The notes under the pieces are model-generated. The model was not told the origin of the DNA, searched no databases, and saw only the letters and a list, made by a program, of their open reading frames with translations. Positions 15,868 to 22,285 of a DNA stretch of 64,000 nt are shown here, piece by piece (within the stretch, counting starts at the first letter, position 1; the number at the start of each line of letters is the position of its first letter). The stretch is from Spongiibacter thalassae. Its GTDB lineage: Bacteria > Pseudomonadota > Gammaproteobacteria > Pseudomonadales > Spongiibacteraceae. Where the stretch lies: positions 1-64,000 of the forward strand of contig NZ_JAAWWK010000004.1 in assembly GCF_012272835.1 (NCBI RefSeq), given 5' to 3'. A program made the position numbers and the translations under genes.

Positions 15868-16050
15868 ATGACCATGAGTGCACGCTCCCCACTTTTGCTA
15901 TTGCTTTGTTCGCTATTTGTTTTCAGCCCTACACTGGCCCAGTGGCTCGATGCCGCGGGCACCGCCTGGTACCGCCATCATCTGGTGTGGTTCGCCATTA
16001 TTATTTTTATCTACCTGGCAGCACGAAAGCGGGACAACCATGGCGTTTGA
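15868..16050 (+). CDS. cbrX: CbrX-like small membrane protein
   Basis: Sixty-residue protein with two hydrophobic segments (about residues 8-25, a signal-like stretch ending TLAQW, and 39-52, HLVWFAIIIFIYLAA) and a basic tail AARKRDNHGV. Its last 11 bases overlap the cbrA start. The same position, size and overlap are described for CbrX in Pseudomonas, where the small gene is translationally coupled to cbrA. Identification rests on position and topology more than on residues. Confidence 0.75.
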   Translation: MTMSARSPLLLLLCSLFVFSPTLAQWLDAAGTAWYRHHLVWFAIIIFIYLAARKRDNHGV

Positions 16051-19030
16051 TATCAATACCCTGTTATTTCTCGGGCTTCTTTACCTGTTATTGCTGTTCG
16101 CCATTGCCTTTGCCACGGAAAAGCAGCTGCTGCCACAGGCGCTGATCGAACACCCAGCTGTATATGTGCTGTCACTTGGCGTGTATGCCAGCGCCTTTGC
16201 CTACTACGGCGTCACCGGCCTGGCCAAGGCCTATGGCATGAGCTACCTGAATTATTATCTGGGCATATCCGCTGCCCTGTTTCTGCTGCCGGTACTGATC
16301 GCACCATTGCATCATGTGTGTAAAAGCTACCGCTTGAATTCCATCGCCGATATCCTCAGCTTTCGCTTTCGCAGCCAATGGGTTGGCTCCCTCAGCACGA
16401 TCATTAGCGGACTCGCTATTACCCCCATTCTCGCCGTACAGATCCAGACCGTCTCCAACGCAGCGTCGACGCTCACTACCGCCGATCCCCTGAGCGATGA
16501 GGGCAGCATTTTCCGACGCTTAACCGGCATCGCCTTTTGCGTAATTATCAGTGTATTCACGATTTTATTCGGCTCCCGCAGCCTGTCCTCCAAGGACAGC
16601 CATCGCGGCTTGGTCACTGCGCTCGCCTTTGAGTCTCTGGTCAAGCTCATCGCCTTTCTGGTCCTGGGCGTTGTCGCGGTTGTCAGTATTTTCGGCGGTT
16701 TCAGCGACATGCAAGCATGGTTAGCGGCTAACCCGCAGCTGATTACCAGCATGGCTGAGGCAAATGCCAACGACAGCGGCAGAATGATGCTGTTACTGTT
16801 TTTTGCAGCGGCGATCTGCATGCCCCACGTTTTTCACATGCTGTTTGCCGAGAATTCCAGCTCACGCAATCTGGTTTCTGCCAGCTGGGGCCTACCCCTT
16901 TACCTGTTCCTCATCAGCCTGCCGGTACTCCCCTTGTTGTGGAGTAACGCCGCCATCGGCGCCGATATGAATGGCGACTACGCCGCATTAAACGTGCTCA
17001 ACCATCTCGACAGCCCAGCGCTGACACTGCTGGTCTTTATTGGCGGCATCTCCGCCGCCAGCGGCGTGATTATTGTGTCAACGCTGGCTCTGGCTTCTAT
17101 GTGGCTTAACCATCTGGTTCTCCCGTGGCAAACACCGCAAAAACGGGACATCAACATCTACAACTGGCTGCTGTTGACCCGCCAGTGCCTGATTGTGGCC
17201 GCAATTTTCACCAGCTACCTGCTCTACGAGATCATTCCCGACCGCAAGCTCCTCAGCGACCTTGCCCTGGTGTCTGTCGCAGGCTGCGCGCAGCTGCTGC
17301 CCGGCTTACTTGCCACCCTGTATTGGCCCAATGCCAACCGCAACGGTTTTATCGCGGGCCTACTGACCGGGCTGACACTGTGGATCACCGGCACCCTGCT
17401 ACCAATACTGGGGCTAGCTCCCCCCGCCATTATTCAATCACTGCTCGACGCCAGCGCACCGGAGACCTGGCTCAGTTTCGCAGGTATTACTCTCGCGCTG
17501 AACGGAATCGTCTTCGTGGGGGTTTCCCTGCTCACCGAAACCTCCAAAGAGGAGCGCAGCGCTGCCGAAGCCTGCACCGTCGATGACCTGAATCGCCCCA
17601 GCCGCCAGGCACTTAACCTGAAAAGCGCCATGGAAATGCGCTCGCGCCTGGCCGAAACCATTGGCCACACTGTGGCCAAGCAGGAGGTCAACCGCGCCCT
17701 CAACGAGCTGCAGCTCAGCATCAATGAAACGCGACCCTATGCACTGCGACGACTGCGCGACCGCATAGAAATCAATCTGTCGGCGCTGGTGGGGCCATCG
17801 AATGCCCGCCGAGTCATTGATCGCAGCCTACCCTACACTGGCGACATCGCCGGTGACGGCGAGGACATCAATTACATTGAGGACCGCCTGGAGCGCTACC
17901 AAACCCACTTGACCGGTCTTGCCGCCGACCTCGACGGCCTGCGCCGCTACCACCGACAAACACTGGAAAACCTGCCTACCGGGGTGTGCGCACTGGGTGC
18001 CGACTCGGAAATTCTGCTGTGGAACAAGAGCATGGCGAGCATCACCGGCATTCACAGTGCCGAGATTACCGGCTCTGCCCTGGGCGGTCTGCCCAACGCC
18101 TGGCGCGAGCTGCTGGTCAGCTTCTGCGCCAGCCCCGACGACCACTGGAATAAATACAGCCTCGAGCTGGAGGGCACGCCGCGCTGGCTAAACCTGCACA
18201 AAACCGAATCGAAAATGCTCGGCCGCAACGAGCTGATTGTGGTTATCGAAGACATCACCGACACCCAACTACTGGAAAAGGAGCTGGGACATCAGGAGCG
18301 CCTCGCTTCTATCGGTCGCCTCGCCGCCGGCGTTGCCCACGAGATCGGCAACCCGGTCACCGGCATCGCCAGTCTCGCGCAAAACCTGCGCTACGAGACG
18401 GAAGACCCTGCATTACTGGAAACCGCCGAGCAGATCGTCAAGCAAACCCGGCGCATCAGCACCATTGTGCAAAGTCTGGTTAACTTCGCCCACAATGGCC
18501 GCGACGATCCCACCCGGGCGAAGGAAGCCGTTTCAGTGGCCCAATGTGTGAACGAAGCCATTCAACTGCTGAGCTTCGACAAGGAAGCCAAAAAAGTTCA
18601 CTATGACAATGCCTGCGACCCGTGCATTGCCGTTGCCGGCGACTATCAGCGGCTGACCCAGGTGTTTATCAATTTGTTGACCAACGCCCGTGACGCCAGC
18701 CCCGAGGGCAGCACCATCCGCATCGACGCGGATAGCCTCGACACCAATGCACTGATCCGCGTCGTCGACCAGGGGGAAGGCATCCCTCCCGACATTGCCG
18801 AACATATCTTCGAGCCCTTTTTCACCACCAAGGAACCGGGCAAGGGTACCGGCCTCGGGCTCGCCCTGGTGTATCGTATTATCAACGACCTGAACGGTGA
18901 TATTTCCGTGAAAAGCCCAGTCAGCGACAATGGGGCCAGCGGCAGCTGTTTTCAGTTGCAACTACCGCTGGCCTGCCATATTCAACCGCCACTACCGACC
19001 AGCAGCAACCGGGCGTTTCTGGAATTATGA
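16040..19030 (+). CDS. cbrA: Sensor histidine kinase CbrA with sodium/solute symporter domain
   Basis: Membrane sensor of the CbrAB two-component system controlling carbon/nitrogen use; in Pseudomonas it also supports histidine transport. The 996-residue protein has about 13 membrane helices in an SSS-type transporter domain (residues 1 to about 500), a linker and PAS region (about 640-740, LPTGVCALGADSEILLWN), then a kinase core: H-box GVAHEIGNP with His767, N-box around INLLTNARDAS, and G-boxes VDQGEGIPPDIAE and GKGTGLGLAL. Length is close to Pseudomonas CbrA (about 980). The ATG at 16040 lies inside cbrX; the frame extends upstream without similarity. cbrB follows after 60 bp. Confidence 0.95.
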   Translation: MAFDINTLLFLGLLYLLLLFAIAFATEKQLLPQALIEHPAVYVLSLGVYASAFAYYGVTGLAKAYGMSYLNYYLGISAALFLLPVLIAPLHHVCKSYRLNSIADILSFRFRSQWVGSLSTIISGLAITPILAVQIQTVSNAASTLTTADPLSDEGSIFRRLTGIAFCVIISVFTILFGSRSLSSKDSHRGLVTALAFESLVKLIAFLVLGVVAVVSIFGGFSDMQAWLAANPQLITSMAEANANDSGRMMLLLFFAAAICMPHVFHMLFAENSSSRNLVSASWGLPLYLFLISLPVLPLLWSNAAIGADMNGDYAALNVLNHLDSPALTLLVFIGGISAASGVIIVSTLALASMWLNHLVLPWQTPQKRDINIYNWLLLTRQCLIVAAIFTSYLLYEIIPDRKLLSDLALVSVAGCAQLLPGLLATLYWPNANRNGFIAGLLTGLTLWITGTLLPILGLAPPAIIQSLLDASAPETWLSFAGITLALNGIVFVGVSLLTETSKEERSAAEACTVDDLNRPSRQALNLKSAMEMRSRLAETIGHTVAKQEVNRALNELQLSINETRPYALRRLRDRIEINLSALVGPSNARRVIDRSLPYTGDIAGDGEDINYIEDRLERYQTHLTGLAADLDGLRRYHRQTLENLPTGVCALGADSEILLWNKSMASITGIHSAEITGSALGGLPNAWRELLVSFCASPDDHWNKYSLELEGTPRWLNLHKTESKMLGRNELIVVIEDITDTQLLEKELGHQERLASIGRLAAGVAHEIGNPVTGIASLAQNLRYETEDPALLETAEQIVKQTRRISTIVQSLVNFAHNGRDDPTRAKEAVSVAQCVNEAIQLLSFDKEAKKVHYDNACDPCIAVAGDYQRLTQVFINLLTNARDASPEGSTIRIDADSLDTNALIRVVDQGEGIPPDIAEHIFEPFFTTKEPGKGTGLGLALVYRIINDLNGDISVKSPVSDNGASGSCFQLQLPLACHIQPPLPTSSNRAFLEL

Positions 19031-19090
19031 CCGCTAACGCGTTATGTTGTCCGGCTGTGTTCGGCAAGCCGACATCCGATGGAGCGAAAT

Positions 19091-20530
19091 ATGCCGCGAA
19101 TATTAATCGTTGAAGACGAAGATGTTATCCGCCTCGCCCTCCGGCGACTTCTGGAGCGCAATGACTATCTAGTGGATGAAGTAGGCTCGGTACAGGATGC
19201 CATCAGCCGCTTCGATCTCGACAGCTATTCATTGATTATCAGTGACCTGCGTCTTCCCGGCGCGCCCGGCACCGAATTAATCAGCAAGACCGATCGGCCA
19301 GTACTGATCATGACCAGCTACGCCAGCTTGAAATCAGCGGTCGATTCAATGAAAAAAGGGGCCATCGACTACATCGCCAAGCCTTTTGACCACGACGATA
19401 TGCTCGATACTGTCGCGCGCATCATCAGCAACCACGAGCAGGATCCACCGACACCTCTTAGCAGCAGCCGCCAGCGCCGGGACACCGCGGCGAGCAATGG
19501 TATGATCGGCAGCTGCAAACCCATGCAGCGTCTGTACGACCATATTCGCCGCGTGGCGCCCACCGACACCACCGTGTTGATCCACGGCGAAACCGGCACC
19601 GGCAAGGAACTGGTTGCCCGAGCCCTGCACTCACAAAGCAAGCGTGCGACGAAGAACATCGTCTGTGTAAACTGTGCCGCCATACCGGAAACACTGATTG
19701 AGTCCGAATTATTCGGCTACGAAAAGGGCGCCTTCACCGGCGCCAACGCCAACCGAATCGGCCTGATCGAAGCCGCCGACGGCGGCACCCTGTTCCTCGA
19801 CGAAATCGGCGAGCTACCGCTCGAAGCCCAGGCGCGGCTGCTGCGCTTTATTCAGGAAGACGAAATCCGCCGCATTGGCGCCGTAGAGTCCAACAAGGTC
19901 GATGTCCGCTTGATCTGCGCCACCCACCGCGACCTGAAAGACATGGCCCACCAGGGACGCTTTCGGGAGGATTTGTACTACCGCATCAACGTCATGAAGC
20001 TGGAACTACCGCCGCTGCGTGAACGCGGTAAAGATATTCTGGAAATTGCCGAAACCCTGCTCAAGCGCCGCTGTGAAGCCTTGGGCCGGGAGCCACTGAA
20101 ACTCAGCCCGAGGGCCATTCAGGCGATCACCACCTATATCTGGCCGGGCAATATTCGCGAGCTGGAAAACGCCATTGAGCGCGCCGTCATCCTCTGCGAA
20201 GGCGACGAAATCGACAACGAGCTGCTGGATATCGACCTTGAGCTGGTGGACATCAGCCAAATTCGCGGTCGCCGCACAGAGCCGCGCCCCCGCTACCCCC
20301 AGCAACAGATTCCCGAGCGCAAGGAATCCCGGCCACGCACCCGCAACGCCGACCCCGCCGAAGATCTGTCACTGGAGGATTATTTTCAGCGCTTTGTTCT
20401 CGAACACCAGGACAGCATGAGCGAAACCGAACTCGCGCAAAAACTGGGAGTCAGCAGAAAATGCCTGTGGGAGCGCCGGCAGCGACTTGGCATTCCGCGC
20501 AAAAAATCAGCGCGCAGTGGAAGCAACTAA
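19091..20530 (+). CDS. cbrB: Sigma-54-dependent response regulator CbrB
   Basis: NtrC-family activator, partner of CbrA. The 479-residue protein has a receiver domain (RILIVEDED; phospho-acceptor Asp52 in ISDLRLPG; conserved Lys in YIAKPFDHDD), an AAA+ domain with Walker A GETGTGKE, the sigma-54 contact loop GAFTGA at 213-218 and Walker B LFLDEIGEL, and a C-terminal Fis-type helix-turn-helix (ETELAQKLGVSRKCLWERRQ). GGAG lies 6 nt before ATG 19091, so this start is preferred to ATG 19079. The next gene in the conserved order is the putative crcZ, which has a matching sigma-54 promoter. Confidence 0.96.
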   Translation: MPRILIVEDEDVIRLALRRLLERNDYLVDEVGSVQDAISRFDLDSYSLIISDLRLPGAPGTELISKTDRPVLIMTSYASLKSAVDSMKKGAIDYIAKPFDHDDMLDTVARIISNHEQDPPTPLSSSRQRRDTAASNGMIGSCKPMQRLYDHIRRVAPTDTTVLIHGETGTGKELVARALHSQSKRATKNIVCVNCAAIPETLIESELFGYEKGAFTGANANRIGLIEAADGGTLFLDEIGELPLEAQARLLRFIQEDEIRRIGAVESNKVDVRLICATHRDLKDMAHQGRFREDLYYRINVMKLELPPLRERGKDILEIAETLLKRRCEALGREPLKLSPRAIQAITTYIWPGNIRELENAIERAVILCEGDEIDNELLDIDLELVDISQIRGRRTEPRPRYPQQQIPERKESRPRTRNADPAEDLSLEDYFQRFVLEHQDSMSETELAQKLGVSRKCLWERRQRLGIPRKKSARSGSN

Positions 20531-20544
20531 GCCCACTATGACAC

Positions 20545-20593
20545 CGTTACCCAAAAATGATTCGCGTAACACATGGCGTTTATATAGGTAACA
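20545..20593 (+). promoter_or_regulatory. Candidate CbrB upstream activating sites
   Basis: Three related half-sites lie 75-125 bp before the sigma-54 promoter: CGTTAC at 20545-20550, GTAACA at 20566-20571 and GTAACA at 20588-20593. Starts of successive sites are about 20-22 bp apart, so they face the same side of the helix. They resemble the TGTTAC/GTAACA inverted half-sites reported, to my memory, for CbrB at Pseudomonas crcZ. Spacing between the first two (15 nt) is close but possibly not identical. Confidence 0.6.
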
Positions 20594-20667
20594 ATACACA
20601 TAAATGCAACAACCCCCAAAACCCCTAAAACACAACAAGTCATTGAAAAATATAGAAATTCAAAAGT

Positions 20668-20683
20668 TGGCACAAGGGATGCA
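20668..20683 (+). promoter_or_regulatory. Sigma-54 promoter
   Basis: TGGCACAAGGGATGCA matches the -24/-12 consensus TGGCAC-N5-TTGCW with correct GG-to-GC spacing (20669-20670 and 20681-20682); the only departure in the core is A for T in the -12 element. Transcription should begin near 20694. It lies in the cbrB-pcnB gap, downstream of a sigma-54 activator gene and of repeated CbrB-like half-sites. Confidence 0.8.
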
Positions 20684-20693
20684 ATCCTAAGGG

Positions 20694-20807
20694 GCAAAAG
20701 AAGAATAAAACCACACAATAAAAATAATAGAGATCGGACCAATAACAATAACAGACGAAGCAAAGAGACCTGGGTGGGGAAGACATTGTTTTCCCCTTCT
20801 TCGTTTT
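20694..20807 (+). ncRNA. crcZ: Putative CrcZ-like decoy small RNA
   Basis: Predicted transcript of about 114 nt from the sigma-54 promoter to a hairpin terminator. It is rich in the AAnAAnAA (CA) motifs that Hfq with Crc binds: an AAAAGAAGAATAAAA block (20696-20710), ACAATAAAAATAATAG (20715-20730) and AATAACAATAACA (20741-20753), all in unpaired-looking sequence. Position between cbrB and pcnB is exactly that of crcZ in Pseudomonas, where the RNA sequesters Hfq/Crc to relieve catabolite repression. It is much shorter than the Pseudomonas RNA (about 350-400 nt). No plausible coding sequence exists on either strand. Start and end are inferred, not measured. Confidence 0.7.
20776..20807 (+). terminator. 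Terminator of the crcZ-like RNA
   Basis: Stem GGGGAAGAC / GTTTTCCCC (20776-20784 and 20788-20796; nine pairs including one G-U) with loop ATT, followed by the T-rich TTCTTCGTTTT. Confidence 0.75.
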
Positions 20808-20861
20808 AGCCCCCCTGAAATGAGCTAACCCCCCCTTTTGACCCGCGAAGCATTTCCCTTG

Positions 20862-20870
20862 TGCTAGAAT
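20862..20870 (+). promoter_or_regulatory. Extended -10 promoter for pcnB
   Basis: TGCTAGAAT (TG-N-TAGAAT) lies 36 bp before the pcnB ATG and after the crcZ-like terminator. A TTGACC at 20838-20843 is too far (21 bp spacer) to be a normal -35. It overlaps an upstream GTG of the pcnB frame, which argues for the downstream start. Confidence 0.5.
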
Positions 20871-20905: not shown

Positions 20906-22285
20906 ATGAGCGCCAATACTGTTTCCGGGCTATGGAAAAAGCTGACCGGCAAGCTGAACATGAGCAAGCCAGACATTCATATGCCAACAATTATCCAGCG
21001 CGATGACCACTGCGTTTCACGCAGCCTGATCAGCGATAGCGCGTTGAAGGTGATGCACCGACTCAACCAGGGCGGCTATCAAGCCTATCTGGTGGGTGGC
21101 GGTGTACGCGACATTCTGCTCGGCGGCCAACCCAAAGACTTCGACGTTGCCACCGACGCCACTCCCGAACAGGTGCGCGGCCTGTTTCGCAACAGCCGGA
21201 TTATCGGGCGGCGCTTTCGCATCGTACACGTGCGCTTTGGCCGGGACGTTATCGAGGTCACCACCTTCCGTGGCAGTCACGACGCTCCCGAGACCCAAAC
21301 CAACCCGCGCAGCAAACGCTCCGCGCGCAATGAATCCGGCATGCTGCTGCGCGACAATGTGTTTGGCAGCATGGATGAAGACGCCCTGCGCCGCGACCTC
21401 AGCATTAACGCCCTCTATTATTCCAGCAAAGACTTTGCCATTTACGACTTTGCCGACGGCCTTGAAGACCTCAAGCGCCGCCTGATACGCGTGATCGGCG
21501 ACCCGGAGACCCGCTACCGCGAGGACCCGGTGAGAATGCTGCGCGTGGTGCGTTTTGCCGCGAAGCTCGACTTCGACATCGAGCCCGCCACCGAGGCGCC
21601 GCTGAAAAACCTCAGCCCCCTGCTCAGCGATATCGCGGCAGCACGCATGTTCGACGAAGTGCTCAAGCTATTGATGAATGGGCGCGCCCTGCAAACCTAC
21701 GCACTGATGCAACGCTACGGCCTGTTTGCCCCCCTTTTCCCCGCCACCCAGAAATTGCTAGATCGCGGCGTACCCCACGCCTATGAGCTGATACAGCAGG
21801 GCCTGGCCAATACTGATGCCCGCATCTCTGAGGACAAGCCAGTCACTCCTGCGTTTTTATATGCGGTTCTGCTGTGGCCAGTGGTGAAAGAGATACACGC
21901 CGAACTGGTTGCCGAAGGTGTGCCGGAAATACCCGCACTCCACCAGGCCTCGGAGCGGGTACTGCACAAGCAGCAGCAAACTGTGGCCATCCCCAAGCGT
22001 TTTTCACTGCCCATGCGCGACATCTGGGAATTACAGCTGCGCTTTGCACGACAGTCGGGTAAACGCGCCACCCAAGTGGTGGAAAACCGCTATTTCCGCG
22101 CCGGCTACGACTTTCTATTGTTACGCGAGCAAGCAGGCGAGATCGACAACAGCCTCAGTCAGTGGTGGCAAGCCTATTACGAAGCTCAGCCCGAAACCCG
22201 CGAGGGGATGGGCCGACCCCGCGAAGACAACGATCGACCACGGCGCCCCCGCCGCCGTCGGCGCGGACCACGGAAAGACACATGA
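20906..22285 (+). CDS. pcnB: Poly(A) polymerase I
   Basis: Adds 3' poly(A) tails to RNA and so promotes decay. The 459-residue protein has the nucleotidyltransferase signature GGVRDILLGGQPKDFDVATDATPEQV with the catalytic aspartates, GRRFRIVHVRFG, and RRDLSINALYY, and a long basic tail (RPRRPRRRRRGPRKDT) common in PcnB. Start ATG 20906 chosen because the frame upstream overlaps its promoter. Its stop overlaps folK by 4 bases (ATGA). Confidence 0.95.
   Translation: MSANTVSGLWKKLTGKLNMSKPDIHMPTIIQRDDHCVSRSLISDSALKVMHRLNQGGYQAYLVGGGVRDILLGGQPKDFDVATDATPEQVRGLFRNSRIIGRRFRIVHVRFGRDVIEVTTFRGSHDAPETQTNPRSKRSARNESGMLLRDNVFGSMDEDALRRDLSINALYYSSKDFAIYDFADGLEDLKRRLIRVIGDPETRYREDPVRMLRVVRFAAKLDFDIEPATEAPLKNLSPLLSDIAAARMFDEVLKLLMNGRALQTYALMQRYGLFAPLFPATQKLLDRGVPHAYELIQQGLANTDARISEDKPVTPAFLYAVLLWPVVKEIHAELVAEGVPEIPALHQASERVLHKQQQTVAIPKRFSLPMRDIWELQLRFARQSGKRATQVVENRYFRAGYDFLLLREQAGEIDNSLSQWWQAYYEAQPETREGMGRPREDNDRPRRPRRRRRGPRKDT

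Follow-up and report, generated by a model that had tools for sequence, protein, structure and literature searches.

The gap between cbrB and pcnB in Spongiibacter thalassae raises the question of whether the CbrAB-CrcZ relay, in which the decoy RNA CrcZ relieves carbon catabolite repression, reaches beyond the pseudomonads. Passages of PMC6296734 and PMC8871633 state that CbrAB is exclusive to Pseudomonads or Pseudomonadaceae, and a passage of PMC7918813 names Pseudomonas species and Azotobacter vinelandii as hosts of CbrA and CbrB. Among the titles listed from the open-licence literature, preprints excluded, none was on crcZ or CbrAB in another family, and nothing was found there on CrcZ with Cellvibrio or with non-Pseudomonas; one paper, PMC5073097, contains both CbrB and Marinobacter. 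We describe here the gap as it stands in the first 64,000 nucleotides of contig NZ_JAAWWK010000004.1 (the window) and the occurrence of its parts in other genomes. The gap very probably encodes a short CrcZ orthologue that acts as a CbrB-controlled, Hfq-titrating RNA.

The gap was read directly between the end of cbrB (20530) and the start of pcnB (20906), and its features are collected in Table 1. It contains an operator, CGTTAC-N15-GTAACA-N16-GTAACA, that is one letter off the published CbrB form (TGTTAC-N12-14-GTAACA-N15-19-GTAACA) and has a first spacer one above the published range. The half-site centres are 21 bp (F1-R1) and 22 bp (R1-R2) apart. The original prediction had claimed three phased TGTTAC/GTAACA half-sites; R1 and R2 are exact, while F1 carries 5 of the 6 letters of TGTTAC. 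The sigma-54 promoter fits its consensus as claimed and lies 74 bp past R2. The spacer holds an IHF-like site one mismatch away from YAANNNNTTGATW, which we take to be the IHF consensus. Such a match is expected by chance in about 1/6 of spacers; this one occupies the place conserved among relatives. The perfect consensus is present in three genomes of the window's genus (G148, G063, and G171). The original prediction had named neither this site nor the conserved 3' element. Just 5' of pcnB, TGTGCTAGAAT is perhaps the extended -10 of pcnB's own sigma-70 promoter.

Table 1. Coordinates of features in the window
Feature	Position	Strand	Basis or remark
cbrA, sensor kinase (long N-terminal region, PAS, HisKA, HATPase)	16040..19030	+	Pfam PAS/HisKA/HATPase_c
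cbrB, NtrC-type sigma-54 activator	19079..20530	+	Pfam Response_reg, Sigma54_activat
CbrB half-site F1, CGTTAC	20545..20550	+	Direct reading, operator-promoter scoring
CbrB half-site R1, GTAACA	20566..20571	+	Operator-promoter scoring, pattern scan
CbrB half-site R2, GTAACA	20588..20593	+	Operator-promoter scoring, pattern scan
IHF-like site CAAGTCATTGAAA, 1 mismatch to YAANNNNTTGATW	20636..20648	.	Spacer motif count
Sigma-54 promoter TGGCACAAGGGATGCA, GG-N10-GC	20668..20683	+	Direct reading, operator-promoter scoring
Predicted compact CrcZ RNA, ~114 nt	20694..20807	+	Ends by rule from promoter/hairpin
AAN x4 run 1, AAGAAGAATAAA, Hfq distal face/Crc motif	20698..20709	+	Predicted unpaired 0.65
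AAN x4 run 2, AATAAAAATAAT	20717..20728	+	Predicted unpaired 0.97
AAN x4 run 3, AATAACAATAAC	20741..20752	+	Predicted unpaired 0.97
3' element GACCTGGGTGGGG of compact class	20767..20779	+	Family alignment, counts in order
Terminator hairpin GGGGAAGACATTGTTTTCCCC, then TTCTTCGTTTT	20776..20796	+	9 bp including one G-T
TGTGCTAGAAT, kept in family	20860..20870	+	Alignment of family gaps
pcnB, poly(A) polymerase	20906..22285	+	TIGR01942, 525.9 bits (cut-off 305.65)

The predicted transcription start (~20694) was set by rule, 12 nt past the -12 C, so that the ~114 nt is likewise a rule-based length; it agrees with the proposal of an RNA far shorter than that of Pseudomonas. At least three A-rich clusters had been expected, and several AANAANAA runs were found: three AAN x4 runs in the 212 bases past the promoter, versus 0.03 in shuffles. 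The first may pair with the 3' tail of the RNA in the predicted fold. The expected terminator was recovered as a hairpin followed by an imperfect U-tract, TTCTTCGTTTT. Four plus-strand open reading frames of at least 12 codons start and stop in the gap, none of which extends into the predicted RNA; the longest (ATG, GTG, or TTG start, stop in the gap) has 28 codons and ends at 20690, 5' of the RNA. The A-rich part shows one-base indels between relatives, and the claim of no coding potential holds. The features of 20545-20807 are real and exceed chance.

Rfam gave a divided answer. At gathering thresholds the window's single match is a 16S fragment, and a 601-base scan with the CrcZ model RF01675 gave 7.9 bits (E 10). 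The model's best match in the whole genome is G000:C8:20696-20838 (window 20696-20838) at 22.4 bits (E 9.7e-4); the next best, on C9 (14.7 bits, E 0.176), was set aside as a crcZ copy for its weak score. The Rfam check proposed in the original prediction therefore placed the genome's top match exactly in this gap but far under the gathering threshold of 95 bits, and the ~114 nt falls short of the model's ~400 nt (398 positions). At a loose E of ≤10, 9 of 14 control genomes also gave matches. At E ≤ 0.01, 50 of the order's 194 genomes gave a match and 0 of the 14 controls did, with 9 of the 194 above the 95-bit threshold; of the seven members of the window's genus, four (G023, G123, G148, and G171) gave no match at this cutoff. 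The match lies within 1500 bases after cbrB in 41 of the 50 and does not in 6, and cbrB was unlisted in 3. G147, G013, and G045 have a better match elsewhere than in the cbrB gap. Three genomes of label f8 (G007, G163, and G185) carry CbrB without a crcZ-like gap and have RF01675 matches of 1e-10 to 1e-11 elsewhere; there, the RNA may have moved to another locus.

The protein partners are encoded in the same genome. The ATG start of cbrA was picked by hand. The N-terminal 560 residues of CbrA align at 36-65% with proteins of the named loci, and Pfam reported no SSF domain in it at 1e-3. Among the best 25 of 82 NCBIfam models for CbrA and the best 25 of 94 for CbrB, none reached its cut-off. 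The helix-turn-helix core of CbrB, LAQKLGVSRKCLWERRQRLGI, is identical at 19 of 21 positions to that of label f21, which we take to be Pseudomonadaceae and whose gap RNA scores above 300 bits with RF01675; at least 9 of the 21 letters are found in 139 of 150 CbrB C-termini. Hfq is also encoded, with P. aeruginosa Hfq as its best PDB match (142 bits).

A Crc-like protein of the ExoIII family (L006, 1447-2229) is encoded between pyrE and rph, both identified from their sequences and by match, and has lost its catalytic residues. Its best PDB match is Crc (197.6 bits), followed by an exonuclease III entry (187.5 bits). It is 39% identical to P. aeruginosa Crc (100 of 258 columns) and shares 99 identities with its own ExoIII paralogue L004, and because these similarities are equal, its identity as Crc turns on location, residues, and tree. 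In each of 22 proteins with pyrE beside them (19 also with rph), two or more of the four catalytic residues (E, D, N, and D) are changed, and all four are kept in five relatives' proteins without an adjacent pyrE and in the paralogues L003 and L004, which have other neighbours. In the tree, the node splitting ExoIII-like rows from the rest has a support of 1.000, and the deep Crc nodes are weak (0.08-0.64). A Crc match of at least 67% identity is present in 21 of 21 genomes of the family, with residues read in five. Among 20 chosen genomes of other labels, all with cbrB, 17 have a nuclease-dead-type Crc; at 1e-35 no Crc match was obtained in G173 or G016, and the only match in G044 is of the intact ExoIII type. 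G173 (f28) and G016 (f17) have the operator, promoter, and AAN runs, and CrcZ without Crc is possible in these two. A passage of PMC6422490 names Crc residues that make RNA or dimer contacts in the Hfq/Crc/RNA structure, and 11 such positions were compared. Three of them are kept here (R137, R140, and R141), three are mildly changed (E142D, R162K, and R229K), and five are changed otherwise (K155N, W161A, R196T, R230P, and F231R), which weakens the case for a Crc that operates just like its P. aeruginosa counterpart. Since most contacts are changed and 3 of the 20 tested genomes lack a Crc match, the safer assumption is that Hfq itself is titrated.

Conservation was followed with the 479-residue CbrB as the query (E ≤ 1e-100), which matched in 165 of the 194 order genomes. 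Of these, 150 were taken, and 149 gave downstream stretches, as G027 runs off its contig end before the stop codon. A PcnB match follows the gap in 123 of 149. The score of a gap was its number of matching promoter letters, GG and GC being obligatory, less two for every mismatch in the operator, with the promoter 40-120 bp past the operator. A score of at least 0 was reached by 89 of 149 gaps versus 0 of 745 dinucleotide-shuffled gaps; the other 60 fail. Up to 450 bases past each of the 89 promoters, 360 AAN x4 runs were counted versus 18.2 in shuffles, with two or more in 84 gaps. The perfect IHF consensus occurs in 27 of the 89 spacers (0.9 expected) and a match with at most one mismatch in 66 (14.9 expected); most of these sites begin 32 bp ahead of the promoter. 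These order-wide counts are not independent events, owing to the relatedness of the genomes.

Counted by family label, the promoter is present in 27 of 41 and the promoter with at least two AAN x4 runs in 26 of 41, which bears out the claim that such a locus exists outside Pseudomonas. Neither the promoter nor two AAN x4 runs were seen in any member examined of f8, f10, f18, and f42; the f42 gap leaves 100 bases to the PcnB match. At the class level, CbrB was found at 1e-100 in 19 of 185 genomes. There are 16 such matches outside the order, of which 15 break off at residues 372-384 and so stop short of the DNA-binding end; the remaining one, in G318, extends to residue 472.

A protein-free scan of named genomes, with one genome for each of 84,980 species, used the pattern GTAACA-N15-17-GTAACA-N70-78-TGGCAC-N6-TGCW and returned 116 sites in 114 stretches, with one to two chance matches expected by hand estimate. 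It is a sample, not a census, because it demands GTAACA at R2, which is GTAACG in 7 of 7 f21 gaps. Ninety-eight sites adjoin cbrB (at least 45% identity, within 1000 bases) and/or pcnB: 85 lie between both, 9 beside cbrB only, and 4 beside pcnB only. cbrB stands beside a site in Spongiibacter, Neomelitea, Zhongshania, Litorivivens, Dasania, Parahaliea, Chromatocurvus, Luminiphilus, Nitrincola, Saccharospirillum, and Halopseudomonas, among others. The nearest named CbrB relatives are those of Neomelitea salexigens (88%, partial protein), Spongiibacter marinus (86%), and Spongiibacter pelagi (81%, partial). Of the 18 sites near neither gene, 11 have two or more AAN x4 runs; the other seven comprise one at a stretch edge and six under unrelated titles, namely Desulfobacteraceae, Peptococcaceae, Lachnoclostridium, Pandoraea (two), and Pseudodesulfovibrio. 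The Peptococcaceae site lies 15 bases past a CbrB-kind activator with 38% identity. A metagenome-assembled genome (MAG) titled Verrucomicrobiaceae (L190) has a CbrB of 72% identity and a crcZ-like site in a gap identical to G029:C52 of the order; the record has probably been given the wrong title.

By position and control, and as far as sequence can tell, the gap is a crcZ orthologue, in compact form with its own 3' element. This orthology, and with it a relay beyond Pseudomonadaceae, follows from the gap features, the order-wide enrichment, and the presence of full-length CbrA and CbrB, Hfq, and a nuclease-dead Crc, and the CrcZ-like reading of the original prediction is supported on these counts; the one-mismatch IHF-like site is present as well.

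In a compact class of gaps, comprising labels f1, f4, f11, f13, f29, f30, f31, f40, f45, and f47, the 3' end of the RNA consists of GRCCTGGRTGGGG leading into a hairpin. All 13 letters of the element are matched at 45 places in the 149 gaps (chance expectation well under one, by hand estimate); the ten labels together have 37 gaps, and 36 of these contain it. Past it, a hairpin of at least six pairs (G-T and one mismatch allowed) follows in 45 of 45 units, with differing stems. It also lies within 500 bases of 59 of the 116 named-scan sites, which were chosen regardless of it. A 15-letter form occurs at 54 places, spread over 37 of 194 genomes, and 34 of these places lie no more than 1500 bases past cbrB; since the reversed pattern gave 2 places, some of the 20 others may be real. 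A model (R1) built from 27 units picked by the element, the window's own included, gave 56 matches in 41 of 194 genomes, 51 of them after cbrB, where 12 genomes have two. A variant in f9, CCTCCAGAGGGG, could form the same small CCT-NNNN-RGG hairpin as GRCCTGGRTGGGG, as read by eye. Binding of CsrA/RsmA by the element was considered and rejected, as the window's genus has GGG where other labels have GGA.

This degree of conservation would also suit a CbrB-controlled small RNA that works mainly through GACCTGGGTGGGG, by mRNA pairing or another protein, with the AAN runs just loading Hfq. The five pairs of the RNAalifold consensus, all within the terminator stem, are compatible with this. However, the AAN runs are kept as well and occur without the element in other labels, the complement pattern is found in the genome at one place besides the element itself, and the alignment (A1) is no proof of conservation because its rows were picked by the element. 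We regard this alternative as unlikely. Still less probable is a sigma-54 transcript that serves chiefly as a leader putting pcnB under CbrB control: pcnB does lie downstream in most gaps, but the hairpins past the element, the extended -10-like sequence directly before pcnB, and the units that in some genomes lie away from pcnB, within the stretches covered, speak against it. That the promoter and runs are an inherited relic, out of use in this lineage, is the least credible reading, for although the Crc contacts have drifted and the family, with 359-478 bases to the pcnB match, has some of the shorter gaps, alignment across relatives, the check originally proposed, found the operator, promoter, three or four AAN x4 runs, and 3' element kept in all 8 family genomes compared, with other parts of the gap much changed.

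Some gaps hold two units. Half-sites and a sigma-54 promoter were read by eye at both units of G127 and G152 (f47), and a TGGCAC/TGC promoter precedes the second unit in G068 and G174; none was found in the 80 bases before the second element in G106, G134, G158, and G180 (f40). HTCC2143 (L200) has two pattern sites in one cbrB-pcnB gap, with a sigma-54 promoter before the second. The tandem loci within one such gap are L020, L024, L026, and L028 (f40), L017, L019, L022, and L059 (f47), and L200. The Spongiibacteraceae MAG CSMAG_2844 (L163 and L219) has two CrcY-like units that lie off cbrB and pcnB within the stretches covered; both carry the 3' element and AAN runs as well as an operator and a sigma-54 promoter. 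In the S. thalassae genome, GTAACAN{14,18}GTAACA occurs at three places (reversed control, seven); the surroundings of the other two contain no TGGCAC/TGC promoter at the right distance, and both were rejected as crcY. Model R1 gave one match there at E ≤ 0.001, to a sequence that was in the model.

On the preferred reading of a short, Hfq-titrating CrcZ, CbrA would activate CbrB when good carbon sources run out. CbrB at the three half-sites, with an IHF bend, would then switch on the sigma-54 promoter to yield the ~114-nt RNA with its three AAN x4 runs. Each run would bind one Hfq hexamer at its distal face, whether Crc takes part or not, and would thereby pull Hfq off the A-rich ribosome-binding sites of catabolic mRNAs, so that translation resumes. 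We infer transcription of the RNA, its dependence on CbrB and IHF, Hfq binding, titration, and its physiology.

As read from these genomes, the CbrAB-CrcZ relay extends across the order, well beyond Pseudomonadaceae and against published statements. The original prediction left it open whether the relay predates Pseudomonas or spread beyond it. The first appears better supported, based on the cbrB-gap-pcnB order, present in at least one genome of 35 of the 41 labels, rather than on a locus tree. Tentatively, and with less than even confidence, we suggest a two-part RNA, with an A-rich Hfq-titrating half and a second working half on GRCCTGGRTGGGG, found in ten labels and, as a unit, duplicated in tandem or transferred to other loci; the relay would then be ancestral to the whole order, and Pseudomonas CrcZ a form of it that grew larger later. 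CbrB and crcZ-like genes occur in many gammaproteobacterial families, with a nuclease-dead Crc in most genomes tested, and the same RNA switch may therefore run carbon choice in them. As a minimal decoy made by nature, the 114-nt form would allow clear tests of how many Hfq sites are needed and of the role of the extra 300 nt of Pseudomonas CrcZ and of the 3' element.

Among known systems, RsmY and RsmZ are RNAs that soak up a global translational repressor. A passage of PMC8871633 draws the parallel between them and CrcZ; the likeness is one of working mode, with another protein and another motif, and no homology is claimed. Compared with P. aeruginosa Crc (4JG3) and the ExoIII nucleases, the protein described here falls on the Crc side of the tree and has the pyrE-rph locus and lost catalytic residues of Crc, and it differs from 4JG3 in having 3 of 11 contact residues identical and 3 more mildly changed. 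CbrA and CbrB stand in the same order before the RNA gene as in the known CbrAB system and share its near-identical HTH core, whereas the host is outside Pseudomonadaceae. With Pseudomonas CrcZ (RF01675; with CrcY and CrcX), the gap shares the cbrB-pcnB site, F1-R1-R2, an IHF-like site (here with one mismatch), the sigma-54 promoter, AAN runs, and a terminator. It differs in the 3' GACCTGGGTGGGG, an element found in 0 of 7 f21 gaps (one incomplete), and in its ~114 nt with three runs, versus 407 nt with six A-rich stretches in PAO1, as given in a passage of PMC4063720. According to the same source, P. aeruginosa CrcZ titrates Hfq itself, and its first 151 nt, with three A-rich stretches, give three shifted bands with Hfq. 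As the make-up of that piece is about that of the ~114-nt RNA, this result supports the decoy reading.
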